The notes beneath the pieces were generated by a model, which was not told the origin of the DNA, did not search any database, and saw only the letters and a program-made list of their open reading frames with translations. The translations under genes and the position numbers were made by a program. A stretch of 64,000 bases of DNA. Source: Aureimonas jatrophae. Its GTDB lineage: Bacteria > Pseudomonadota > Alphaproteobacteria > Rhizobiales > Rhizobiaceae. This document shows positions 2,708 through 25,723 of the stretch, one piece after another. Numbering within the stretch: position 1 is the stretch's first letter; every line of letters starts with the position of its first letter. The stretch lies in NCBI RefSeq assembly GCF_900104035.1, contig NZ_FNIT01000010.1, positions 1-64,000 on the forward strand. Direction: 5' to 3'.

Positions 2708-3058
2708 CTAAAGGCAGGTCGAGAGCGGCAAGAGGGGAGAGAAGTTCACGAAGGTGGCAAGTAACGCGACGATGTTGGCGACGACGGAGACTTTGGCAAG
2801 AAACGCTTCGGGATCTCCTTCCCGCTGGCGAGCGCGACGGCGCGCCCAGATGACGAGGGCTGCATTGAGGGCAAGATGTAGTGACCAGTTGGTCACCAGA
2901 GCCGCGCGTTGAAGGCTGATAGGCCCCAGCACCCGGTCCTCCCAGCCATAGGCGCAGCCAAGCGACAGCAGCGCATAGAGGCTGAGAAAGGCGGAGGCCC
3001 AGACGGTGAGGCCGGCGCAAAGGAGGAGAAGGTCGGCACCTGAGCCGCGTAGTGTCAT
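2708..3058 (-). CDS. Small membrane protein of the cytochrome oxidase cluster
   Basis: The 116-residue product is strongly hydrophobic, with about three membrane spans near residues 8-32, 50-72 and 90-110. A basic stretch (ARRRARQRE) precedes the last span. Its start codon overlaps the stop of the oxidase subunit I/III gene as ATGA at 3055-3058, so the two are probably translationally coupled. Small membrane proteins at this place in alternative oxidase clusters are generally taken as accessory or assembly factors. No family motif is recognised, so the role is inferred only from position. It is the last gene of the reverse-strand operon. Confidence 0.65.
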   Translation of the reverse strand: MTLRGSGADLLLLCAGLTVWASAFLSLYALLSLGCAYGWEDRVLGPISLQRAALVTNWSLHLALNAALVIWARRRARQREGDPEAFLAKVSVVANIVALLATFVNFSPLLPLSTCL

Positions 3059-5637
3059 AAGGGGAGGCCTGTGCGCAGCGGCGTCAACCAGGGCAGGACG
3101 TTGAGGAAGGCCAGCACAAACACGGACGAAAAGGCCGTGTAGTCATGCCAGAGCGACCCAATCGTGAGGTCGCCCACGCGGTCGCGCGCTACGAAGCCTT
3201 CCCGGCACCGCCAGAGCGAGAAGGCGGCGAGCACCGCCCCGATCGCGGAGTGGAGGGCGATGTAGGCGAGAAAGGCGAAGGTCACGGCGAGATAAGCATG
3301 AGTCGTCGGGTCTGGCACGTCGGCGACCAGCAGCCAGATAGCGAGCGCGCAGGCCAGCGCCTGGGCGCCGGCCGCAACTGCCATCGGCGGCAGTGCGGCC
3401 CCCGGCCCAGCGCGCCGTGCCCTCGCGATCGCGATGCGCAACAGGATGGCCGCAGCCGATACGGCGACTGCCACCCCCAGTGACTTGATGAGAGGCAGCG
3501 CGACCACAATAGGCGCTGGCCAGCCCGGCGCGACCAGCCAGAGGAACAGGGCGCCAAAGACAAGCGATGCCAGCATCGTGCCGTCGGCGACCAGCAGGAA
3601 CAGGACGCCCCACCAGGTTGGCGGGCGGTCTACTTCGGCATGGGTGCGCAACCGAAGCCCACCGCCCGCATCGAGCTCCCCGAAGCTCTCGCGCTGGCCC
3701 GAAGACGGTGCCCAAGCCAGGAAGGACACGACGATCAGGCCGATCGCGAGCGGCGAGAACCAGTACTGCTTGAACAGGAGCGAGAGTACGAAGCTGCCGA
3801 TGGCGAGCGCGCTCCAGAGCGGCAGGTAGGTCGGTCGGGGCAGGATCGCGATATGCCGGGGCTCTGCGGTCGCGGTGTCGACGACCAGGGTTTCCTGCCA
3901 GCCGTTGCGCGGCGCCGCGAGATAGCCGCGCCCGGCCGCAAGATCCTCGCGCAGCGTGGGTCGGTCGCGCAGCGGCGTGCGCGTCTCGACATGCGGCAGC
4001 GCCGCGAAGCCATAGGGTCGCGGCGGCGTCGCGGTGGCCCATTCCAGCGTCTCGGCGCCCCAGGGGTCCGGCTTGGTGGTGCGGCCGTAGCGGAACTGGA
4101 AGAGCATATCGATCGCGAACAGGGCGAAGCCCGCGGTCGTGATGAAACCGCCGACCGAGGAGACGAGGTTCGGGAGTTCCCACCCCACCCCTTCCAGGAC
4201 GACCGCGAAGCGGCGCGGCATGCCGAGCAGCCCCGTCAGGTGCATGACGAGGAAGGTCAGGTTGAAGCCGACGAAGATCAGCCAGAAGGCGATCTTGCCG
4301 ACGCCGTAGAGCGGCTCGCGGCCGGTGACGTGCGGCAGGTAGTAGTAGGCCGCCGCCAGCATTGGGAAGACGAAGCCTCCGACCAGGACGTAGTGGAGGT
4401 GCGCGACCACGAAGTGCGTGTCGTGGACCTGCCAGTCGAAGGGCACGACGGCAACCATGACGCCCGTCAGCCCGCCGCACACGAAGACCGTGAAGAAGCC
4501 GAACAGGTAGAGCATGGGCAGTGTCAGGCGCGGCCGCCCGGCCATCAGCGTGCCGATCCAGAGGAAGATCTGAACGCCGGTCGGAATGGCGACGAGCATG
4601 CTTGCGGCCGAGAAGAAGGCCTGCGCCAGATGGGGAATGCCCACCGCGAACATGTGGTGGACCCAAAGGCCGAAGGAGAGGAAGCCCGTCGCCGCGACCG
4701 AAACGACGATGGCCGAGTAGCCGTAGATCTCGCGCCGAGCGAGGACCGGGATCATCGTCGTGATAATGCCGGCGGCCGGCAGGAAGATGATGTAGACCTC
4801 CGGGTGACCGAACAGCCAGAAGAGGTGCTGCCACAGGAGCGCGTCGCCGCCGCGCGTCGGATCGAAGAAGGGCAGATCGAAGGCGCGCTCGGCTTCCAGC
4901 AGGACCGAACCGAGGATCAGCGGCGGGAAGCCGAGCAGCATCATGCCGGCCGTCACCAGGATGTACCAGGCAAAGAGCGGCATCTTGGACAGCGTCATGC
5001 CCGGCGCGCGGAAGCGCAGGATCGAAACCGTCAGCTCCACCGCCGCCGCCATGGCCGAGACCTCGACGAAGGTGACGCCGAGGAGCCAGACGTCGGCGTT
5101 GATGCCCGGCGAATGGGCTGAGGACGAGAGCGGCGTGTACATGAACCAGCCGCTGTCCGGCGCGTAGCCGGCGACCAGCGCCGCGATCAGGATCGAGCCG
5201 CCGAAGACGTAGCACCAGAAGCCGAGCGCCGTCATCCGCGGGAAGGCGAAGTCGCGCGCGCCCAGCATCTTGGGCAGCAGGTAGATCGCCAGCCCCTCGA
5301 ACATCGGGATGGCGAAGAGGAACATCATCACCGTGCCGTGCATGGTGAAGATCTGGTTGTAGAGATCGGGCCCGACGAAGGCCGAGCGCGGTGAGGCGAG
5401 CTGCGCGCGGATCAGCATGGCGAGGACGCCGCCGATCGCGAAGAAGCCGAAGGCCGCGATCATGAAGCGGCGCCCGAGAACGGTGTGGTTCACCGCCGAC
5501 AGGCGCCCCCAGCCTAGCGGCGTCGACCAGATGCGCTCGAGCTCCCGCTGGGCCGGCGTGAGCGCGGGCGGCAGCGTCACACCGACGTCGCCCGCCATGT
5601 TGCCGGGCGCGCGCCGCAGCGCGATGTCGCCTACCAT
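3055..5637 (-). CDS. ctaD: Cytochrome c oxidase, fused subunits I and III
   Basis: This 860-residue protein carries a complete heme-copper oxidase subunit I followed by a subunit III-like helical domain from about residue 660. Heme and copper ligands are present: His100 (MHGTVMMF), HPEVY at 278-282 with the cross-linking Tyr, His327-His328 (VHHMF), and His413 and His415 (AHLHY). The C-terminal part contains the subunit III-type segment WWGVLFLLVADG. ATG 5637 is chosen because AGGAGGGG lies just upstream; it overlaps the ctaC stop by seven bases. A second ATG at 5598 is possible. The K-channel lysine position holds Gln356 (PTGVQIF), and the usual Asn pair after the D-channel Asp129 is replaced by Thr136-Ala137. 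The enzyme is membrane-bound and should reduce oxygen with electrons from cytochrome c. It resembles the alternative CoxMNOP oxidases of rhizobia more than the housekeeping aa3 enzyme. Confidence 0.93.
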   Translation of the reverse strand: MVGDIALRRAPGNMAGDVGVTLPPALTPAQRELERIWSTPLGWGRLSAVNHTVLGRRFMIAAFGFFAIGGVLAMLIRAQLASPRSAFVGPDLYNQIFTMHGTVMMFLFAIPMFEGLAIYLLPKMLGARDFAFPRMTALGFWCYVFGGSILIAALVAGYAPDSGWFMYTPLSSSAHSPGINADVWLLGVTFVEVSAMAAAVELTVSILRFRAPGMTLSKMPLFAWYILVTAGMMLLGFPPLILGSVLLEAERAFDLPFFDPTRGGDALLWQHLFWLFGHPEVYIIFLPAAGIITTMIPVLARREIYGYSAIVVSVAATGFLSFGLWVHHMFAVGIPHLAQAFFSAASMLVAIPTGVQIFLWIGTLMAGRPRLTLPMLYLFGFFTVFVCGGLTGVMVAVVPFDWQVHDTHFVVAHLHYVLVGGFVFPMLAAAYYYLPHVTGREPLYGVGKIAFWLIFVGFNLTFLVMHLTGLLGMPRRFAVVLEGVGWELPNLVSSVGGFITTAGFALFAIDMLFQFRYGRTTKPDPWGAETLEWATATPPRPYGFAALPHVETRTPLRDRPTLREDLAAGRGYLAAPRNGWQETLVVDTATAEPRHIAILPRPTYLPLWSALAIGSFVLSLLFKQYWFSPLAIGLIVVSFLAWAPSSGQRESFGELDAGGGLRLRTHAEVDRPPTWWGVLFLLVADGTMLASLVFGALFLWLVAPGWPAPIVVALPLIKSLGVAVAVSAAAILLRIAIARARRAGPGAALPPMAVAAGAQALACALAIWLLVADVPDPTTHAYLAVTFAFLAYIALHSAIGAVLAAFSLWRCREGFVARDRVGDLTIGSLWHDYTAFSSVFVLAFLNVLPWLTPLRTGLPL

Positions 5638-6338
5638 GTCCCCTCCTGCGCGAGCCGCACCCCGCCGGCCGTCGCGGCATCCAGCGCCGCTGGGTATGCC
5701 TCCGCCGCGTGCGCCATCGCCGTGAACCGCATGTCGGTGTGGCCGACCCCGCAGAATTCCGAGCAGACCCCGCCGAACGTGCCGGGCCGGTCGGCAAGGA
5801 TGCGGATTGTGTTCACGTGACCCGGGATGGCGTCGATCTTGCCCGCGAGCCGCGGCACCCAGAACGAGTGGATGACGTCGCCGCCGACCACGCGGATGTC
5901 GATCGGGCGGCCGGCCGGCAGGTGCAGCACATCCTCGGTCTCGCGCCCGTCGGGGTAGCGAAAGTGCCAGCGCCATTGCTCGGGCCGAGCCTCGATGGCA
6001 AGAACATCCTCTCCCCGGTGGGGCAGGAGACGCTCGCCGGTCGCCAGCGCGAAGACGAGGAGCGCGGCGAGCACGGAGCCCGTGAAGACCAGCCCGCCCC
6101 AGACAAGCCAGACGCGCTGCGGAATGCGCGCGCCGAGACCCGGCTTCCATAGCGCCAGAAGGACGAGCGCGGTGACGAGGAGCAGGATCAGGGTCGCGCC
6201 CGAAAACATCACGATTCCGAGCGTCGCCGTGGCTGCGGCGGACGGTCCGGCCGGGTCGAGGACCGACAGGTTGCCGGCGCAGCCGTACAGCCCACATGCG
6301 ATGAAGAAGAGCAGAGCCCCCCGGCCCGAACAGGACAC
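5631..6338 (-). CDS. ctaC: Cytochrome c oxidase subunit II
   Basis: The protein has two membrane spans followed by a periplasmic cupredoxin domain. All CuA ligands are present: His157 (VIHSFW), Cys192, Glu194 and Cys196 (CSEFC), His200 and Met203. Electrons pass from cytochrome c through CuA to subunit I. No ATG fits before the divergent gene at 6342. The GTG at 6338 gives 235 residues and a signal ending in the lipobox LYGC (Cys20), which suggests a lipid-anchored precursor. No good ribosome binding site precedes it, so the start is less certain than the domain. The stop overlaps the start of ctaD. It is part of the reverse-strand oxidase cluster. Confidence 0.87.
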   Translation of the reverse strand: MSCSGRGALLFFIACGLYGCAGNLSVLDPAGPSAAATATLGIVMFSGATLILLLVTALVLLALWKPGLGARIPQRVWLVWGGLVFTGSVLAALLVFALATGERLLPHRGEDVLAIEARPEQWRWHFRYPDGRETEDVLHLPAGRPIDIRVVGGDVIHSFWVPRLAGKIDAIPGHVNTIRILADRPGTFGGVCSEFCGVGHTDMRFTAMAHAAEAYPAALDAATAGGVRLAQEGTW

Positions 6339-6341
6339 CGC

Positions 6342-6842
6342 ATGAGCGATACCGCGACTTCCAAGAGCCCGATCATCGCCGCCGTCACGGAAAAGGACGT
6401 CAGCTCCGCGGTGGCGATCGCCGGACATCCAATCCATGCCATGGCGGTGCATTTTCCGATCGCGCTCGCGGTCGCGACGCTCGGGGCCGACGTCTTCTAC
6501 TGGTGGAGCGCCGATCCGTTCTGGGAGCGTGCCGGTCTCTGGGCGGCGGGCTTCGCCTTCGCGACCGCGGTCGGGGCCTCGCTGGTCGGGACCATGGAGC
6601 TTCTGATGGTGCCGGGCATCCGCGCGCGTGCGGCGAGCTGGACGCACGCCATCGCCGCCATGATGTTCGTCTCGATCGTCGGGCTGAACTGGGGCGTGCG
6701 GCTCGCGGTGCCCAATGCGGTTCTGCCGCTCGGCCTCGTGCTCTCGGCGCTCGGCGCGGTGTTCACGGGTCTGGCGGGCTGGCACGGCGGAAAGCTGATC
6801 CTCCATCATGGCGTCGGCATCATGGTGTCAGACCAGGAATGA
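6342..6842 (+). CDS. DUF2231-family membrane protein
   Basis: The 166-residue product has four predicted membrane segments and the DUF2231 opening motif HPIHAMAVHFPIALAV near residue 30. Histidines in this motif (HxxH, HFP) are conserved in the family and could bind heme or metal, though the biochemical role is unknown. AGGACA precedes the ATG. It lies on the opposite strand inside the oxidase cluster, three bases from the proposed ctaC start. Its 3' end overlaps that of the CopD-like gene by 23 bases. DUF2231 proteins often occur beside respiratory genes, which fits this location. Confidence 0.8.
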   Translation: MSDTATSKSPIIAAVTEKDVSSAVAIAGHPIHAMAVHFPIALAVATLGADVFYWWSADPFWERAGLWAAGFAFATAVGASLVGTMELLMVPGIRARAASWTHAIAAMMFVSIVGLNWGVRLAVPNAVLPLGLVLSALGAVFTGLAGWHGGKLILHHGVGIMVSDQE

Positions 6843-7326
6843 ACCGCACCGCCAGCGCTTGGAGCCCGCCGGGCTCGGTGAGCGCGGTGGGCAGGCCGTC
6901 GAGCGCGATCTCGGGCTTGTCGAGAACGACGTAGAAGATCGCGCCCATGACGAGGGAAAGCACGCCGAGGCTAAGGCCGACGCGCCAGGGCGCAAAGCGC
7001 TGGCCCTCGTTGAAGACCGAAAGCACCAGCAACCCGGTCCAGACATGCAGCGCAACCAGGATGCCGACGAAGAGGAGCTTCACCGCAAACCACGCCGTGA
7101 ACACCTCGCGCGCGAAGGTCAACGCAATGCCGGAGCCGATCGCCACGAAGGCGGCAGGTGAGATGACGGTGATGTAGGCGAAGCGCGAAAGGGCGTGGAG
7201 ACGGTGGAGCGCGTTGCCCTCTCCCGCCGCCTCGCGCTGGCCGAGCAACACCGGCATTAGGAGAATGCCGCCGGCCCAGATCGACAGGGCGGTGACGTGG
7301 AGGAGCTTCAGCCAGACGACGATCAA
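6820..7326 (-). CDS. CopD-family membrane protein
   Basis: The 168-residue protein has four hydrophobic spans with conserved histidines in the first (WLKLLHVTALSIWAGG) and an acidic C-terminal tail. This pattern is typical of CopD/PcoD-like proteins, implicated in copper passage across the inner membrane. The start is probably TTG at 7326, overlapping the ctaG stop as TTGA; a longer frame extends upstream inside ctaG. With ctaG before it and ctaC-ctaD after it, a role in supplying copper to the CuA and CuB sites is a reasonable inference. Confidence 0.78.
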   Translation of the reverse strand: MIVVWLKLLHVTALSIWAGGILLMPVLLGQREAAGEGNALHRLHALSRFAYITVISPAAFVAIGSGIALTFAREVFTAWFAVKLLFVGILVALHVWTGLLVLSVFNEGQRFAPWRVGLSLGVLSLVMGAIFYVVLDKPEIALDGLPTALTEPGGLQALAVRFIPGLTP

Positions 7327-8072
7327 GCCCGACCCACCGTCTTCGCGCCGCCCGCCTCCGCGAGCCCAAGAAGGCAGACGAGAGCCGCGACGAGGTTCGG
7401 AACGATGGCAGGCACCCACATGATCAGCCCTGCCAACTGCTGGTCCTCGAGCGGCGTGAGACCGTAGAGTTCTGTCGTTAGGAGGTGCGGCATGTAGAGC
7501 GGAACCGGCGCGAAGGTGATCAACGCGCCTAGGAGCCCCATCAGGGAGATCAGCACCACGTGGCCGATCGAGCTGCGCAACTGGACGCCGGGCGTCAGAA
7601 GCTCGCGCCAGACGAGAACGGCTGTTCCCAGTAGGCTCGCCTGCATCACCCAGTAGAGACCGTCGCTGCCGAGAGCCCAGGCATACGGAACGGGTGCATG
7701 CCAGAACCAGACGGCGACGACATGTGCGAGGATGGCAAGCGTCAGCGGAGTTCCAGTCGTCCGAAAGTGAGCGGGGAAAGCGACGGCTAGAAGCGGTGCG
7801 GCAGCCGAGATCAAGAGAAGGTGATGAGTGACGCGTGCGGAGAACAACGCCGAGGACAGCGCGCAGAGCGGTGACACGAAGGCGACCGTCAGGAGGGCGA
7901 GAGCCCCGAGATAGGAGTTCCGACGGAACCGGTCACGGCGCAAGGCAGGGTGCAGAAGGCCACCGATGAGAACGCCGCTGAGCATCGTCACAACAATGGG
8001 ATCGAAATTCCAGGCCAGGAGAAGGTCATTCGGTCGCGGGGCCTCTCCGCAATAGGGTACACCTGAAGCCAT
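7323..8072 (-). CDS. ctaG: Cytochrome c oxidase assembly protein, CtaG (caa3 type)
   Basis: This 249-residue membrane protein has six or seven spans. It matches the CtaG_caa3 family in size and in the motifs THHLLLISAAAPLLA and WFWHAPVPYAWAL. Members of the family assist copper delivery and assembly of caa3-type oxidases. The histidines in the TM segments are the likely metal ligands. It is the first gene of the reverse-strand oxidase cluster, so the operon promoter should lie between 8073 and about 8260. The downstream CopD-like gene overlaps its stop. Confidence 0.85.
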   Translation of the reverse strand: MASGVPYCGEAPRPNDLLLAWNFDPIVVTMLSGVLIGGLLHPALRRDRFRRNSYLGALALLTVAFVSPLCALSSALFSARVTHHLLLISAAAPLLAVAFPAHFRTTGTPLTLAILAHVVAVWFWHAPVPYAWALGSDGLYWVMQASLLGTAVLVWRELLTPGVQLRSSIGHVVLISLMGLLGALITFAPVPLYMPHLLTTELYGLTPLEDQQLAGLIMWVPAIVPNLVAALVCLLGLAEAGGAKTVGRA

Positions 8073-19323: not shown

Positions 19324-21318
19324 CTAGTCGGCCGCATGTGATGCGGTTCGGTCGGCAGTGTTCCGGTCGGCTGCCAGCACGCACGTGACGGTCTCCCTCT
19401 CCCACAGCAGCTTGCCGCGAGACCCGAACTCATGGCAGGGCGCGATGCCGCGCGATTGGAGATAGCCAGGGACATCGCGCAACCGCAGGCCGCGAGTCCG
19501 CGCGCCATCCATCATGTGAACCTCGGTTGTCAAAGCGAAGCGACGCGAGAAGGTCTCGAGACCCGACAGGGTCAGGGGCGGAGCCAGCAGGCCCGCCGCG
19601 ACGAGCTCCGAGACGGTGACGGCGGACGCATGCAGCAGAGCCGCTGCCTCCCCTTGGGTCAGCCCGACCTCGCGCGTTCGAGAATGTCGGACATTGATGT
19701 TGGCCGGGGCGAGCGACGCGGATACGAGCAGTCCAGACAGGATGCCCCCATCGGTGCCTTGCCACGCCTCGATGTCCCCGCACAGGACGGCGCTGGCGAT
19801 CGAAATAAGAGGCTGGCCGAGTTCACGCCGGAATGCGTCGGCCGCCGCGCCGAGCGTGACCGTGTCGGCTGTCGGGATCCCAGCCATGACGAGCGCCGAA
19901 AGGGCTGTCTCGGCGGCCTGGACGCTAGCTCCGGTGTAGAAGGTCCCCTTCCCCAGAAGCAGCACTCCCGGACCGCGCGCCGCCGTCACGTGACCGTGGC
20001 GGGACAGGAGCTCGACCTCCCAAGTTGGTACGCCCCAACGGGCACCGAGATCGCTTGCCGATTGGAGGTCGCGCGCCTCCTCGACGATCGTCCGGACGTT
20101 TTCCAAAGGTAGCAGGACGGGAGCTTTCGATGCCCCCGGCGCCCGAACCACGCCTGCCCGAGGGTCGGCAGCCAAATCCGCCCAACGCCGACGGTTGAAA
20201 CCGAAGCGTTTGTGGGCTTCCTGCATCGTCACGAGGTCGGAACGGTGACGGTTCTCCGACCTCCGGACCAACCCCGGCTCGAAGGCGGACGCCGCCATAT
20301 TGGCGCGTACCGCCGTTTGCACCAAGTAACGGATTTCCTTTGACAGGTTGGGATCCACGGACAAGTCGGTGATCGGTCCGAGTTCTTTTGCCACGCCGAA
20401 ATAGAGGGGACGATCGACGCGCGCGGCGCGCAGGCGTTCGCCGAGGTCGTGAAAGGAGGACGGCCACCCTAGCGCCACTCGACCCGCTTCGGCCAGGACG
20501 TCGGGGCCAACCGAGGAGAACTCCGCGTGCGACTTCGCTCGCCAGGACGATGACCTTCCAGCGTTGGCGGCGACGATAGTGCAAGCGACCGCGTAGACGA
20601 ACTCGAACATATCCCCCGGCTCGACGGACCCGAACGGGGAGCCGGCAGGCAGGAAGCGACGCGCATCCTGCAAGGGGTCGAGCAACGCGGCCGCGAAGTC
20701 GAGCGCTTCCTCGTCGCCAACCTCCACCAAAGGTTGGGTGAGATCCCTCAAATCTACCGCGCCAATCGGCATCCCGTATCGATCCGACGTCAGGCAACAG
20801 TCGCAGTACTCGATCCCTAGCGTGGTGCGGAAGGTCAAGCGATGCCCGCAGCCGGGGCACTCCTCGAGCAGTCGCTCACGCGTGGACGGATCGAAACCGA
20901 GCAGCTTGACCGACCAAACGGCCCGGCCGTGGGGGGACGCCCGCAGAGCCCGTGGCGACACGCGGCGGTAGCGCACCTCCCGGTGGACCCTGCGGAGAGG
21001 CGTGCCGAAGAAGTCGTGCCAACCCGTCCTGGCGGGTACGGAACGATAGGCAAGGCGTTCGATCTCTTCCACGCCGCCGACGATGCCGAGCGCCCTTGCC
21101 AGCATGCTCTCCCGCCCGATGACGCTCGTCCCTGCGCTTGCTGGCACCCCCCAACCCGGATCGGCGATGCGCATGACGTCGACGACATTCCGGTAGCCGT
21201 TCACGGCGGCGGCCCGTTGCAGCAGTTCCGGTATGCCCTCCCCTGGGATGGGCTGCACCGGAATGACCAGGGCCGGAACGCTGGTCGCCGACGGTAGGGA
21301 TTCTGGAAGGGCGTTCAC
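19324..21318 (-). CDS. tniQ: TniQ/TnsD-family target-selection protein
   Basis: The 664-residue protein has the TniQ N-terminal region, including a zinc ribbon with Cys154, Cys157, Cys172 and Cys175 (CPGCGHR, YCDCC). A long C-terminal part has helix-turn-helix-like segments, for example LTQGEAAALLHASAVTVSEL. In Tn7-like elements such proteins bind the attachment site and recruit the AAA+ regulator and transposase. The size resembles TnsD-like proteins, and the neighbouring tRNA gene is the likely target. GTG 21318 overlaps the tniB stop as GTGA, supporting this start; an in-frame start further upstream is unlikely. It is the last gene of the transposition operon. Confidence 0.85.
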   Translation of the reverse strand: MNALPESLPSATSVPALVIPVQPIPGEGIPELLQRAAAVNGYRNVVDVMRIADPGWGVPASAGTSVIGRESMLARALGIVGGVEEIERLAYRSVPARTGWHDFFGTPLRRVHREVRYRRVSPRALRASPHGRAVWSVKLLGFDPSTRERLLEECPGCGHRLTFRTTLGIEYCDCCLTSDRYGMPIGAVDLRDLTQPLVEVGDEEALDFAAALLDPLQDARRFLPAGSPFGSVEPGDMFEFVYAVACTIVAANAGRSSSWRAKSHAEFSSVGPDVLAEAGRVALGWPSSFHDLGERLRAARVDRPLYFGVAKELGPITDLSVDPNLSKEIRYLVQTAVRANMAASAFEPGLVRRSENRHRSDLVTMQEAHKRFGFNRRRWADLAADPRAGVVRAPGASKAPVLLPLENVRTIVEEARDLQSASDLGARWGVPTWEVELLSRHGHVTAARGPGVLLLGKGTFYTGASVQAAETALSALVMAGIPTADTVTLGAAADAFRRELGQPLISIASAVLCGDIEAWQGTDGGILSGLLVSASLAPANINVRHSRTREVGLTQGEAAALLHASAVTVSELVAAGLLAPPLTLSGLETFSRRFALTTEVHMMDGARTRGLRLRDVPGYLQSRGIAPCHEFGSRGKLLWERETVTCVLAADRNTADRTASHAAD

Positions 21319-22300
21319 TTGAGGATGGCCCGCCGGACACCGTCCCGGAACGGATTGTAGTCGATGTGACCCTTTGGTATCGCCCACTCATCGGTGGCTT
21401 GCGAGAGGTCGTCGCGGTTGACCATTGTCCCTTTGCGCTCAAGGGACCTCTCGGCACCTGCCTCGACCAACCTCGACGCCATTCCGAGCCTCCCGCCGGC
21501 GACTTCGAACACGCAAGCGGGGATGTCGCCGCTTAGAAAGTTCGAACGCTCCGGAAACAGCCCGTGTTCGCGCAGCATCAATCCGACCTTGCCGAGGTAG
21601 TCTTTGAAAATTTGTATTCCGAGGCGATTTCCAGCCGAAGGCGTCCGTAGTTGATCTCGTTGACACACCGCGCGGCGAGCTGCTCGTCGTTGAAGAGGTG
21701 ATGACGGGCTTCGGTCTTTCCGACGAACAGTATGGGAACCAAGCCACGGATCATCATCAGTTTGAGCGTGTTGGTCGCGCTGGTCTCGAACTGGTTGCTG
21801 CTGCTTGCCCTCGTCCCTTGACGAAGAGCGGTGAGCGAGAGGTGCTGGATCTCGTCGACGACCAAAAGCTCTGTTCTGCATCCCTTCAACAGGACATACG
21901 CCTGCCGCATCAGCAACGGCGTACTGCTGCCTGCGGAGTACTTCGCGCCCAACACGTCCAGTATGTCGCAGGCAAGGGATTTGGGCGTGGCTTTATCGGT
22001 CAGCGTCACGTGGAGCACGCGCTTCTGCAACGTGGCCGCTTTGACGCGATTGAGCCCATCTCCCTTGAGTTCACCGGCCGCGATGACATCGTCGAGGACC
22101 TTGGTCTCGATGTAGTGCTTGACCGCGGTGGACTTGCCAGATTGCGTATCGGCAAACAGGGACGCACACCCCTGCTCGGAATGAGGGGTTCGGCGCCTGC
22201 ACTCGCGCAGGTCGGACATCACCCCCGCGACGTCGTGCAACCGGGGATGCTGGATCCGCATTGTCCTGAACGCAGGCCATATGTCGGCCCTGGTTGTCAC
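21315..22300 (-). pseudogene. tniB: TniB/TnsC-like AAA+ transposition regulator, frameshifted
   Basis: The first frame (GTG 22300 to about 21610) contains an AAA+ core with Walker A DTQSGKST and Walker B ELLVVDEIQHL. At about 21607-21610, in an A run on the plus strand, the frame shifts by one. The other frame continues IFKDYLGKVGLMLREHG to a TGA at 21315-21317. That TGA overlaps the tniQ GTG as GTGA, which shows the second frame is the authentic end. One extra base in the run would restore about 328 residues. As written, the protein ends at 21578 after about 240 residues. TnsC-type ATPases bridge target protein and transposase, so the shift would disable the element unless corrected or erroneous. 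The start overlaps the tnsB stop. Confidence 0.8.
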
Positions 22301-24636
22301 GAAGCTCTTTCCCGTGCCAACTCGAGTTCGAGACGTTCCAGTTCGGCCAGTGAGTCCAGACTTTCCTCAGTGACTTGGACGGGCGCCTTGAGAGGCTTGG
22401 AAGACGGCGTCTCGCCGGCGCTCATGGGTCCTCCGGCAGGCGCTGTCGGTTTCGCCCCGCTCGCCTGCTTCGCCGCCGCCTTATTCCGGTTTCGGGTCGC
22501 CACAGCCTTCGTCGTGGCCTTCTTGCCCCCTCGCCTTGCGTCCTTCGGTGGGATCCGGTCATCCTCGCGCTCGAAGGCCGGCAACGCGTTCGGGACGGAG
22601 CCATCGCCGAAGCCGGAGGGGCTGGGCTCCTCGGTCGCCATCACCACGACGTCACCCAAGCCGAGGTTGGCGTTCTCGCGGTGCAGGGTGGCCACCGCTT
22701 GGCGCCGGCCGCGCGAACGAGCCCCGGCGGTCTTCAACCTGGGTCCGAGCGTCGCCATGTAGGCCGTACGGGCCGCAAGTGCCTCTTCGTTCGAGTGGAA
22801 GGCGAGGTTCTGCTGCTTCACGAACGATTTTAATTTTCCGGCGTAGCTGTAACTGAGGCCATGGTAAGCTGCCTGCCAGTTAGGGAAGCGTTCAGAGATT
22901 CGGCGCCGCGGATCCCACGCTTCGACTTCGGAACAGTCGTTGTCATCCGCAACGATGACAATCTTAGCGGTTCCCGTGCTCAGCGGTCCCTTCCTCTGAG
23001 CTCGCGAGGAGGCGAAGCGCAGGACGCTGTCAAGCATCCTGCTCGTCGTTGCTTGGTCGTGGAAGCGATGGCCCCGGAAGTAGATCCCCTCTGCGGTCAG
23101 CGTAACCCGATGGGTCCGGCCGAACATCTTGTCGAGCGACTTCGGGTCGTCGATGGTGGGACGCTTGCGGTTCGGACCCTTCATCCACTTGCGTGCGGGG
23201 GCCATTCCGATGCCGCTGTGCGGTTCGACGTGGTATATCGTGACGATGGCGCCCCACATGTCGTCCGCCATGGCTTCGATGTTGCGGTCAGCGGCCTCGC
23301 GCGGCTTGATGCCCATTTTTGACATCGTCCGGCCGTCGTGGGGGATGCCGCCTGGCAGCCGATGCCAAACGTGCTGGTTCAACGTTGAGATCGCGCGTTC
23401 GACGTAGGGTTTGTAAGTCGGTGTCTTGACTGAAGCCCAATGGACGTCGATGCCTGCGGCCTCGCATATGGCCTTGAACGAAATACCGACGTTCTGCCAT
23501 GCCCGGTCGACGATGATCTCGGCCGGCTTGCCCCATCCGTCGGTTGCGCCCTTGTGTGGTCCCCAACGACTCTCCAAAAAAGTCTTTCGCCGGACTACCT
23601 GCCGCAGGCATTCCATGACGGTTATCAAGGAGAGGCCGTCGTAGGTCAGCACCGCGCCCAGTATCATGCGCGAGTACAGGTCGATGGCGAGCGTTAGGGT
23701 CGGGCGTGCCGTATTAACGACGTTGCCGTCGGCGTCCGTGAACAGTGCCAAGGCGTCCACCTCCGTGTCGTCAATGAGGACATATTGGAGGATGCGCTCT
23801 GCGACCATGCCCCGGCCACGGCCTCGGAACCGGGCGTCGGCGCTCTTCTTTCCGTACTTTGATTTGTAGTTCTCGTAGTTCTCGCTGTCGTTGACCCATT
23901 TGTGGAGGATCGAGCGTTTGGGACTTTTCGGTATTGCCTCGAACTCACGCTCGCACGCTTCTCGGAGCCTTTTTGCTCCTGTCATGAACTTGTTGACCGC
24001 GTCGCCCTTCCTGACGCCCCTCGCGGACCAATAGTGCGCGATCATGGCGTCCCGCAACTCGAGTATGCGCCGGTCCCAGCGCTCGGTCTTGCCCTTCGTT
24101 CCTCGGGTCAGGAATGGACCGAGCGGCCGGTTTCCGGGGGTGCCATAGTTCTCGAGCGCCCGCTTGAGCGCGCTCGGCGATGGGCACCAGTCGAAGCCTG
24201 CCTCGGTTGCCGCTACGCGGTGTTCCGCGATGAGGTTGCGAAGATCGACTCGGCCATGGGTCAGGCCCGGGGTTTCATCATGGCGCATGCAGAAGAAGCG
24301 AAGCGTCCTCGCATTGGACAGCCTCTGCCGCATCGCCTGCCTGTGGGCTTTCTCGATCGGTTTTATCCCGACCTCTTCCGGGTCCGCGAAGAAAGCCGGA
24401 TCGAGGTCATGGTCGACGCCGTCACCATCGAGAAGCCGAGTGACGCGCACGAGCAGCCCTTCGGAGCGGTCCCGTTCGTACTCGTCCGCAGACATAGTCC
24501 GTTTGCCGCTGCCGTCCGCCTTCCGGAATTCGAGTTTCCCGTCGAACTGGAAGCGCGTGAACTCAAGGGCAACCTGCCGGTCCGCCGTCCCGTAAAGGAA
24601 GATTTGTCCCGCATCGACGTCGGGTTGGCTCGTCAT
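22297..24636 (-). CDS. tnsB: TnsB/TniA-like DDE transposase
   Basis: The 779-residue protein has N-terminal DNA-binding segments, a retroviral-integrase-like core and a basic C-terminal tail. The catalytic triad is read as Asp290 (LIDDTEVD), Asp377 (IIVDRAW) and Glu413 (YVERAISTL). The Mu-type C-terminal beta-barrel follows (GIYFRGHRFHD). The tail is rich in Lys, Ala and Pro and probably contacts the AAA+ regulator. ATG 24636 overlaps the tnsA stop as ATGA, and its own stop overlaps the tniB start as GTGA, so the operon is tightly coupled. It would perform strand transfer, with TnsA cutting the other strand. Confidence 0.9.
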   Translation of the reverse strand: MTSQPDVDAGQIFLYGTADRQVALEFTRFQFDGKLEFRKADGSGKRTMSADEYERDRSEGLLVRVTRLLDGDGVDHDLDPAFFADPEEVGIKPIEKAHRQAMRQRLSNARTLRFFCMRHDETPGLTHGRVDLRNLIAEHRVAATEAGFDWCPSPSALKRALENYGTPGNRPLGPFLTRGTKGKTERWDRRILELRDAMIAHYWSARGVRKGDAVNKFMTGAKRLREACEREFEAIPKSPKRSILHKWVNDSENYENYKSKYGKKSADARFRGRGRGMVAERILQYVLIDDTEVDALALFTDADGNVVNTARPTLTLAIDLYSRMILGAVLTYDGLSLITVMECLRQVVRRKTFLESRWGPHKGATDGWGKPAEIIVDRAWQNVGISFKAICEAAGIDVHWASVKTPTYKPYVERAISTLNQHVWHRLPGGIPHDGRTMSKMGIKPREAADRNIEAMADDMWGAIVTIYHVEPHSGIGMAPARKWMKGPNRKRPTIDDPKSLDKMFGRTHRVTLTAEGIYFRGHRFHDQATTSRMLDSVLRFASSRAQRKGPLSTGTAKIVIVADDNDCSEVEAWDPRRRISERFPNWQAAYHGLSYSYAGKLKSFVKQQNLAFHSNEEALAARTAYMATLGPRLKTAGARSRGRRQAVATLHRENANLGLGDVVVMATEEPSPSGFGDGSVPNALPAFEREDDRIPPKDARRGGKKATTKAVATRNRNKAAAKQASGAKPTAPAGGPMSAGETPSSKPLKAPVQVTEESLDSLAELERLELELARERAS

Positions 24637-25526
24637 CGGCCCCGGTCCAGGATGGCCTTCCCGTCGTTGATCAGACGGACGGGGCTCTCCCCCGACCACT
24701 CGCCGGCCAATCCGATCGATAGGACCCGGCGAACGGTCAGCGCCGCGACCTTGCATTGTGCTGCGGCGCCGCCGCCGAGGGCCTTCGCAACGACGTCCAC
24801 GGTCGCCACGGCGCCTGCCCGACCGACGGCTTCACGGGCCGCGATGACGTCTGCCATTCGGATCGAGGTGAAGCGATCCATGAGGACGTCGCGGATCGGA
24901 GCCATGTCGACGCAGTCGAGGTCCTTGGACTTGAGAATGGTGACGAACGTCATTCCGACCCGCTCGTAGACTTGGGCGGCAAGGTCAAGCTTCTCGGCGT
25001 AGTCTCGATTCGCTAGCCTCGGGTCCCGATCCTCCTTGACCTCTATCACCATCGTTCGCGTCGCAGCGGGACCCATAGGTGGGACCCAGTTGAGGGCCGC
25101 GGTGGCGAATGGCATCCCTGAAACAATGCTGTGCTCGAATGCCCTGTCGACGACTAGCATCAGGTCCGGGAAGTAGACGAGGGGCCGGGACGAGCCCCTG
25201 ACTGTCATTTCCAGCCGGTGGGGCTGCGACAGCAGGCTGTGGACGGCACCGCAGAACTCCGCGAGCTGCATGACGGGTTTTTCACAGTCTCGCGACTCCC
25301 AAGGCATCGCCCTTGCTTTGGCTTTCAGAGAGACGAACGTGCCCGTTGGCTTGCCGCCGCCAGTGGTTTGGATGGTCCGGAGCGGGCCGCCCGTCGTGGA
25401 CGACACGATCCGGGCGAACACCCTGCGGAGATCGACCGGGTCATCTACGTCCGCCCGGGATCTGGGCTCGTTCACGTGACACTTTTGGCAATAGGGTGTC
25501 TCGCGGGAACGGGACGGTTGCCGCAT
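24633..25526 (-). CDS. tnsA: TnsA-like endonuclease
   Basis: The protein (297 residues from ATG 25526) carries a restriction-enzyme-like catalytic core. Glu77 is in MPWESRD, Asp121 in YFPDLMLV, and Glu162-Val-Lys164 in VIEVKED, matching the E-D-xK arrangement of TnsA. A possible zinc-binding CQKC sits near the N-terminus. TnsA cuts the 5' strands so the element moves by cut-and-paste rather than by replicative cointegration. The frame continues upstream to a TTG at 25613, and the start choice is not secure. It is the first gene of the transposition operon and diverges from the winged-helix gene at 25724. Confidence 0.85.
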   Translation of the reverse strand: MRQPSRSRETPYCQKCHVNEPRSRADVDDPVDLRRVFARIVSSTTGGPLRTIQTTGGGKPTGTFVSLKAKARAMPWESRDCEKPVMQLAEFCGAVHSLLSQPHRLEMTVRGSSRPLVYFPDLMLVVDRAFEHSIVSGMPFATAALNWVPPMGPAATRTMVIEVKEDRDPRLANRDYAEKLDLAAQVYERVGMTFVTILKSKDLDCVDMAPIRDVLMDRFTSIRMADVIAAREAVGRAGAVATVDVVAKALGGGAAAQCKVAALTVRRVLSIGLAGEWSGESPVRLINDGKAILDRGR

Positions 25527-25723
25527 ATGACAGGGATCATAGGACTCATGAGGTAAGGGTCGGACACCATAGACCTCGCCTGATTCGAACGGTAAGCTTC
25601 GAAAGGACGCCAATTCGGTGCGGCATCTCCTCCGAGGTGCCTTTCGGTAATGTTATAACTTCAATTTTGGGCCCCGCAAGAAGGGAATCCCAAATTTTGT
25701 CGTCCGGCTGGAGGTAGCCTGTA

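Follow-up and report, generated by a model that had tools for sequence, protein, structure and literature searches.

The oxidase gene and its channel residues

The first 64,000 nucleotides of contig NZ_FNIT01000010.1 of Aureimonas jatrophae (assembly GCF_900104035.1), hereafter the window, carry on the minus strand a gene for a terminal oxidase in which COX1 and COX3 are fused, with the gene for its subunit II and those of several membrane proteins beside it (Table 1). As judged from aligned sequences, glutamine in place of the K-channel lysine and an altered set of D-channel sites are a hallmark of the large family to which this oxidase belongs and not of one enzyme, and three glutamates found in the family occupy positions on the D-channel side where lysine-bearing relatives have no acid.

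The COX1 part spans approximately residues 30–552 and the COX3-like part approximately 600–855, with a start codon that is uncertain, as the alignment of many relatives begins only near residue 30. The NCBIfam profile TIGR02891 (CtaD_CoxA) matches residues 46–550 with 689.6 bits against a cut-off of 670.75. An AlphaFold2 model built from a 40-row alignment (mean predicted local distance difference test score 82.5) finds its best structural match in the caa3 oxidase of Thermus thermophilus (2yev), which we take to be an A2-type enzyme with a c-haem subunit II; residues 40–848 align with its I+III chain, 2yev_A (Z 36.3, 757 residues, root-mean-square deviation 2.8, 29% identical). Since the model aligns over both parts of the Thermus fusion, the fusion is taken to be real. 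No Pfam COX3 match to the C-terminal part was obtained even at E 0.05, and no Protein Data Bank sequence was matched to it by phmmer; the Pfam silence was not accepted as absence of the domain, as the 2yev_A match spans that part. The original prediction of a fused subunit I–III at 3055–5637, which was made from the DNA alone and named no strand, is thus borne out by the open frame, the profile and the fold.

Conservation was assessed on 180 distinct subunit I rows, of which 144 have Gln at site 362 and 32 have Lys (Gln-type and Lys-type rows; site numbers follow Rhodobacter sphaeroides subunit I unless a residue is given as that of the window protein). The other four rows, three truncated matches and locus L201, were excluded, as were, before counting, the window gene copies L003, L007 and L124, six exact duplicates and 16 loci with no COX1-like match. 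Close relatives are over-represented among the 144 rows, 80 loci having come from a search with the window protein. The ligands H102, H284, H333, H334, H419 and H421 and the active-site Y288 are all present in the window oxidase, and the six histidines, Tyr288, Arg481 and Arg482 are invariant in all 144 Gln-type rows, which argues that the oxidase is under selection for its chemistry.

Table 1. Features of the oxidase locus, in window coordinates; loci are the 80 related loci fetched with the window protein
Feature	Position	Strand	Remarks
Fused COX1-COX3 gene, 860 aa	3055..5637	minus	Translation of 5637-3055 is a single open frame
Glu114, helix II, site 117, one turn before the N121 site	5296..5298	minus	Glu in 143/144 Gln-type and 0/32 Lys-type rows; within predicted helix 90-125
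Ile118 at N121 site (asparagine gate)	5284..5286	minus	Asn in 0/144 Gln-type rows
Asp129 at D-channel entry D132, retained	5251..5253	minus	Asn in 5/144, Glu in 6/144 Gln-type rows
Thr136-Ala137 at N139-N140	5227..5232	minus	From alignment
Glu192, helix IV, site 198	5062..5064	minus	Glu in 144/144 Gln-type and 0/32 Lys-type rows (Gly or Ser there); within predicted helix 179-208
Glu201 at D-channel N207 site	5035..5037	minus	Glu 142, Asp 1, Ala 1 of 144 Gln-type rows; Asn in 32/32 Lys-type rows
Glu280 (E286) to Tyr282 (Y288, active-site Tyr), retained	4792..4800	minus	Tyr 144/144; Glu 136/144, Asp 8/144
Thr353 (T359 of the K-channel), retained	4579..4581	minus	Alignment to R. sphaeroides
Gln356 at K-channel Lys362 site	4570..4572	minus	Gln in 80/80 loci
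Subunit II (COX2)	5631..6338	minus	Complete CuA motif, lipobox-like Cys (LYGC), no CxxCH; Val at Glu101(II) site; putative GTG start at 6338; homolog in 79/80 loci
Small membrane protein, 116 aa	2708..3058	minus	4-base overlap with oxidase gene end; homolog in 55/80 loci; no Pfam or NCBIfam match
DUF2231 membrane protein	6342..6842	plus	Homolog in 76/80 loci
UPF0093 (HemJ-like) membrane protein	6820..7419	minus	Homolog in 76/80 loci
Caa3_CtaG copper-assembly family protein	7323..8072	minus	Homolog in 71/80 loci

The motif PTGVQIF (window residues 352–358) was located at 4564–4584 on the minus strand, and in a pairwise alignment with gap-free surroundings its Gln356 pairs with Lys362 of R. sphaeroides, in agreement with the earlier claim of Gln where A-type oxidases carry the K-channel lysine. 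A conserved lysine was sought in helices VI and VIII across the 144 Gln-type rows and none was found. In helix VI the basic residues are the ligand H284 and, close to its end, Arg at 307/308. In helix VIII, 105 of the 144 rows have His at 342, which lies near the helix start and at the opposite end from site 362, and 20 have Lys at 372. The gap-free alignment, the lack of a conserved helix VI/VIII lysine and the absence of Asn at gate sites 121 and 139 of the window protein together rule out that the channel residues are displaced, an outcome for which the original prediction had allowed; lysine and gate asparagines are replaced.

Compared with R. sphaeroides, the D-channel of the window oxidase has Thr for N139, Ala for N140, Ile for N121, Glu for N207, Gly for S142 and Ala for S201, and Y33 of the D-path aligns with Phe58; D132, E286, Y288 and T359 are kept. 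In canonical enzymes the D-channel gate consists of N121 and N139, and N207 is one of the residues that line the channel (PMC10341450; site equivalences between bovine, Rhodobacter and Paracoccus enzymes follow Table 2 of PMC12901375). Site 139 is Ser in 71 Gln-type rows, Thr in 53, Gly in 13 and Ala in 2, with Asn in five, all of them unfused CoxN-like proteins. The change of Asn140 to Ala was discarded as a signal, for the same Ala is found in all five actinobacterial enzymes compared, which retain Asn139 and the lysine, and one of which also has Gly at site 142. Both asparagines of the pair reported as Thr-Ala are therefore replaced, as first described, and only the first replacement is distinctive.

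An acid at site 117, 198 or 207 was found in none of the 32 Lys-type rows. By simple helix geometry, site 117 should lie one turn from site 121 on the same helix face. Canonical channels are described in a review as having ionisable residues at their ends only (PMC8239185); unlike them, the D-channel region of the window oxidase, as aligned, has ionisable residues mid-channel.

The entry of the K-channel is altered as well. Glu101 of subunit II is present in R. sphaeroides and in six of six reference loci (L001, L002, L005, L006, L035 and L036), and in none of the 109 family subunit II rows aligned to R. sphaeroides (one gapped), rows that are not all distinct, as they include two window copies and the alike L016 and L040. 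As Lys362 in subunit I is gone along with Glu101 in subunit II, neither end of the K-channel is preserved.

Subunit II varies within the family in other respects. Both CuA cysteines and the second His are lost in 14 of the 109 rows (L028, L091, L095, L096, L098, L100, L101, L103, L106, L107, L110, L111, L115 and L116), with Ser, Asn or Gly and Tyr instead and with H217 and E254 kept; to judge by these residues, such members may use a changed electron donor, for example quinol. His occupies the CuA Met position 263 in ten rows (L063, L066, L077, L079, L080, L083, L085, L089, L090 and L108), and a scan of whole open reading frames (ORFs) gave a candidate CxxCH in four window-type loci (L068, L069, L075 and L102).

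The Gln-type family and its relation to known oxidases

Gln-type proteins diverge to as little as 43.4% identity, with 87 invariant columns of 466. Since the Gln and Lys groups were defined by the residue at site 362, independent support for them comes from the tree. In a quick tree of 81 rows, 46 Gln-type rows (the window oxidase, 31 picked for diversity and 14 random) fall on one side of a branch with a Shimodaira–Hasegawa-like approximate likelihood ratio test support of 97, and 34 Lys rows on one side of a branch with support of 99. As far as the sample shows, the change to Gln probably arose once and then stayed fixed. The channel changes reported by the original prediction are thus real; their framing as a feature of a single enzyme does not hold, as they are common to a large family that includes the second fused copy in the same genome.

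That genome (4.59 Mb) encodes six subunit I homologs, with one heme A synthase gene elsewhere. C13 is a canonical aa3 oxidase with PTGIKIFS and FPRLNN; C15, C23 and C5 are quinol-oxidase-like, with the lysine kept and the CuA cysteines missing from their subunit II; PTGVQIF occurs in the two fused proteins, the window copy and C20. Among the named close relatives of the window oxidase are those of Aureimonas, Antarcticirhabdus and Aurantimonas. Counting the window's own, 18 of the 21 genomes in the genus have an ortholog at ≥60% identity, and the other three have only the second type, at 45–47%. Among 199 evenly drawn Pseudomonadota genomes, again including the window's own, at least 15 encode a Gln-type enzyme; the protein search gave 16 at E 1e-150, of which one (G248) has Ala at the site, and 15 is a lower bound in that at most four candidates were scored per genome at a strict cut-off. 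A count of the Gln motif as a pattern (34 of 299 genomes) was left unused, as only 11 of the 30 returned loci proved to be oxidases on translation.

In the oxidase of G248 (L201/L209), site 362 is Ala, site 286 is Trp (HPWVY), H411 is replaced by Thr, and subunit II has a CxxCH; L201 is thus a related oxidase that lacks both E286 and K362. In the tree it adjoins the Gln branch, its own branch being long and its placement unsure. The contig of L077 is titled Bacillus sp., and its oxidase groups near a Sphingopyxis sequence, so that it is possibly mislabelled or contaminated.

The window oxidase is a haem-copper oxygen reductase of the A lineage by its fold, ligands, Tyr-I and profile. B-type enzymes lack the D-channel residues and C-type enzymes lack Tyr-I. 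Assignment to either was rejected, with the B-type K-path residues and Tyr-II outside the comparison, as D132, E286 and Tyr-I are kept and the best E values of 3.6e-13 (B-type chain) and 1.8e-7 (cbb3) stand against 4.2e-135. It resembles the canonical aa3 oxidases of R. sphaeroides and of its own genome (C13) in the haem and CuB ligands, D132, E286, Y288 and T359, and differs from them at K362, N121, N139, N140, N207 and Glu101(II). The fingerprint given for A1 enzymes comprises, in Paracoccus denitrificans numbering, Asp124, Asn113, Asn131, Asn199, Tyr35, Ser134, Ser193 and Glu278 of the D-channel and Lys354, Thr351, Ser291 and Tyr280 of the K-channel (PMC3084760). Only the Asp and Glu of the former are kept in the window oxidase, the three Asn being Ile, Thr and Glu, Ser134 being Gly, Ser193 Ala and Tyr35 standing against Phe58; in the latter Lys is Gln and Ser291 is Thr, with Thr and Tyr kept. 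Because this fingerprint fails, the protein is not filed as a typical A1 enzyme, though it groups with the A-type.

The locus is like the A1-type COX operon ‘subtype a’ in its COX1-COX3 fusion and neighbouring Caa3_CtaG gene (PMC4013037, PMC6431628); the accessible portions of those descriptions do not mention channel residues. Five relatives with an unfused subunit I of ~655 residues (L197–L200 and L203), from genomes in the window's taxonomic family, lie in the same branch as the window oxidase and are probably CoxN of the CoxMNOP alternative aa3/ccaa3 oxidases of rhizobia and Pseudomonas, judged from size and layout. They share Gln362 and Glu198 with the window oxidase and, except for L203, Glu117 and Glu207. 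Their subunit II has one CxxCH, and CoxM of KF707 is said to carry two c-haems (PMC5492768). The window oxidase differs in being fused to COX3, in having no CxxCH in subunit II and in keeping D132, where all five have Asn. That these proteins have lost D132 and yet have Glu198 (5/5) and Glu207 (4/5) suggests that proton uptake does not depend on D132 alone.

Proton uptake and pumping

From the residues found, their conservation, the single tree branch, the intact haem and CuB ligands and the model fold, we infer an enzyme in which electrons would enter the CuA subunit, probably from a cytochrome c, the K-channel would be disused, and protons would be taken up through a Glu-lined region on the D-channel side to reach Glu286. 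On balance we lean towards this reading, that of an active A-lineage oxidase without a working K-channel, fed with protons by a Glu-lined route near the old D-channel, and with pumping that is probably weaker than in canonical aa3 and possibly absent. The K-channel is unlikely to be in use because the titratable Lys362 and Glu101(II) are both gone, the Glu-lined route is favoured because the CoxN-like members without D132 retain Glu198 and Glu207, and weaker pumping is probable because the asparagine gate is gone and its key site is Thr, Ser or Gly. This is consistent with the original prediction, which saw changes in both canonical channels and suggested that other residues might be used, a view that gains from the conserved buried Glu at 117, 198 and 207 and from the loss of Glu101(II). 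More speculatively, and with less confidence than we attach to the enzyme itself, the family may represent A oxidases that take up protons by one Glu-lined route, on the side of the D-channel, and have no K-channel; they would then mirror the B- and C-type enzymes, in which a K-type route is the only one.

The bovine substitutions N98D, N98T and N98S, of which the last two correspond to N139T and N139S, retain oxygen reduction and lose pumping (PMC12901375). A different pumping stoichiometry is therefore plausible here. In the same paper N98D or N98T, added to a K-channel mutant (printed there as K316M), restores a lost transition. The meaning of such decoupling mutants is disputed, as that paper itself argues for the H-pathway as an alternative route of pumped protons, and the assignment of protons to channels, like the question of whether the D-channel takes any pumped protons at all, is still argued (PMC12901375).

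These mutants also bear on a second possibility, that the oxidase is a naturally decoupled, non-pumping electron sink, which would conserve energy only via uptake of substrate protons from the cytoplasm and would operate alongside the pumping aa3 when oxygen is high or reductant is in excess. Of the 144 rows, 124 have Thr or Ser at N139, which are the published decoupling changes, N207 and N121 are lost as well, the same genome retains the canonical aa3 and three quinol-type oxidases, and, under the conditions tested, mutation of coxMNOP in Rhizobium etli caused no distinct growth defect (PMC4274787). However, three conserved new buried glutamates exceed the needs of a simple decoupled enzyme, and Glu286 (Asp in eight rows), Arg481 and Arg482 are kept. 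We regard full decoupling as possible and less than probable; it is compatible with the Glu-lined route, of which it would be the zero-pumping end. Rather unlikely, in our judgement, is a K-channel that works without its lysine, with Gln356 anchoring water, Thr353, Thr293 and Tyr282 conducting by a water chain, and the two-channel scheme unchanged in outline. In its favour, the Gln is polar and has become fixed without drift, none of the 112 window-type rows lacks Thr359 or Ser/Thr299, B-type enzymes use the K-path without this lysine (PMC3084760) and Thermus ba3 has Thr there (Table 2 of PMC12901375). Against it, the entry residue Glu101(II) is also lost (0/109 rows), only 3 of the 112 window-type rows retain Ser365 and 25 of the 27 C20-type rows carry Ala at site 299; moreover, the K-channel serves the reductive phase in A-type enzymes, and K319M (= K362M) essentially blocks haem a3 reduction in canonical ones (PMC12901375). 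That the gene is degenerate and encodes a non-functional oxidase, as the loss of textbook channel residues might suggest, is scarcely credible given the open frame, ligands invariant in 144 rows, the lack of variation in 87 of 466 columns, the conservation of neighbouring genes in 71 to 79 of 80 loci (55/80 for the small ORF) and an ortholog at ≥60% identity in 18 of the 21 genomes of the genus.

Several observations weigh against the Glu-lined route and a disused K-channel. The retained Thr359 and Ser/Thr299 could mean residual conduction along the K-path. Similarity around Glu101(II) is low, so that single rows may be misaligned. By helix geometry Glu198 appears to sit on the face of helix IV away from 207, and its role in the same path is unsure. 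Because the Gln-type rows form one branch, Gln362 and the new glutamates count as a single event and not as repeated independent covariation; moreover, the tree is of a quick kind and covers 46 of the 144 Gln-type rows, with L183 and L201 on long branches of unsure placement. No structure, simulation or pumping measurement of any family member was found in the open-access literature.

A family that apparently lacks a K-channel and has a rewritten D-channel gate would be a ready-made natural experiment: any pumping by its members would have to dispense with the K-channel lysine and the asparagine gate, and in the CoxN-like proteins with D132 too. Standard assumptions on proton uptake and pumping are not simply transferable to the window oxidase, and caution is needed before pumping or ATP yield is assigned to fused or CoxN-type oxidases by annotation alone. 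In a 2011 classification only 4 of 1216 sequences were without the channel residues of their type, all of them nearest the B-type (PMC3084760). PMC8239418 discusses variation in the K- and D-channels of family A oxidases from archaea and bacteria, and Gln362 and the channel changes may in part already be known to specialists; no open-access paper was found that deals with channel residues in CoxN or in fused COX1-3 oxidases, in a search whose reach did not extend to the supplement to PMC8239418 on K-channel variants.

Neighbouring genes and the rest of the window

The small ORF that overlaps the end of the oxidase gene is absent from 13 of the loci whose subunit II lacks CuA cysteines (L028 was outside that test) and from 12 other loci of the 80. 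Farther along the window, three adjacent ORFs at 19324–25613 on the minus strand resemble a Tn7-like set, with matches to an integrase core (22297–24756) and a TnsA N-terminal domain (24633–25613) that are both weak and below curated cut-offs; the third, beside these two, is an unmatched ORF of 687 residues.

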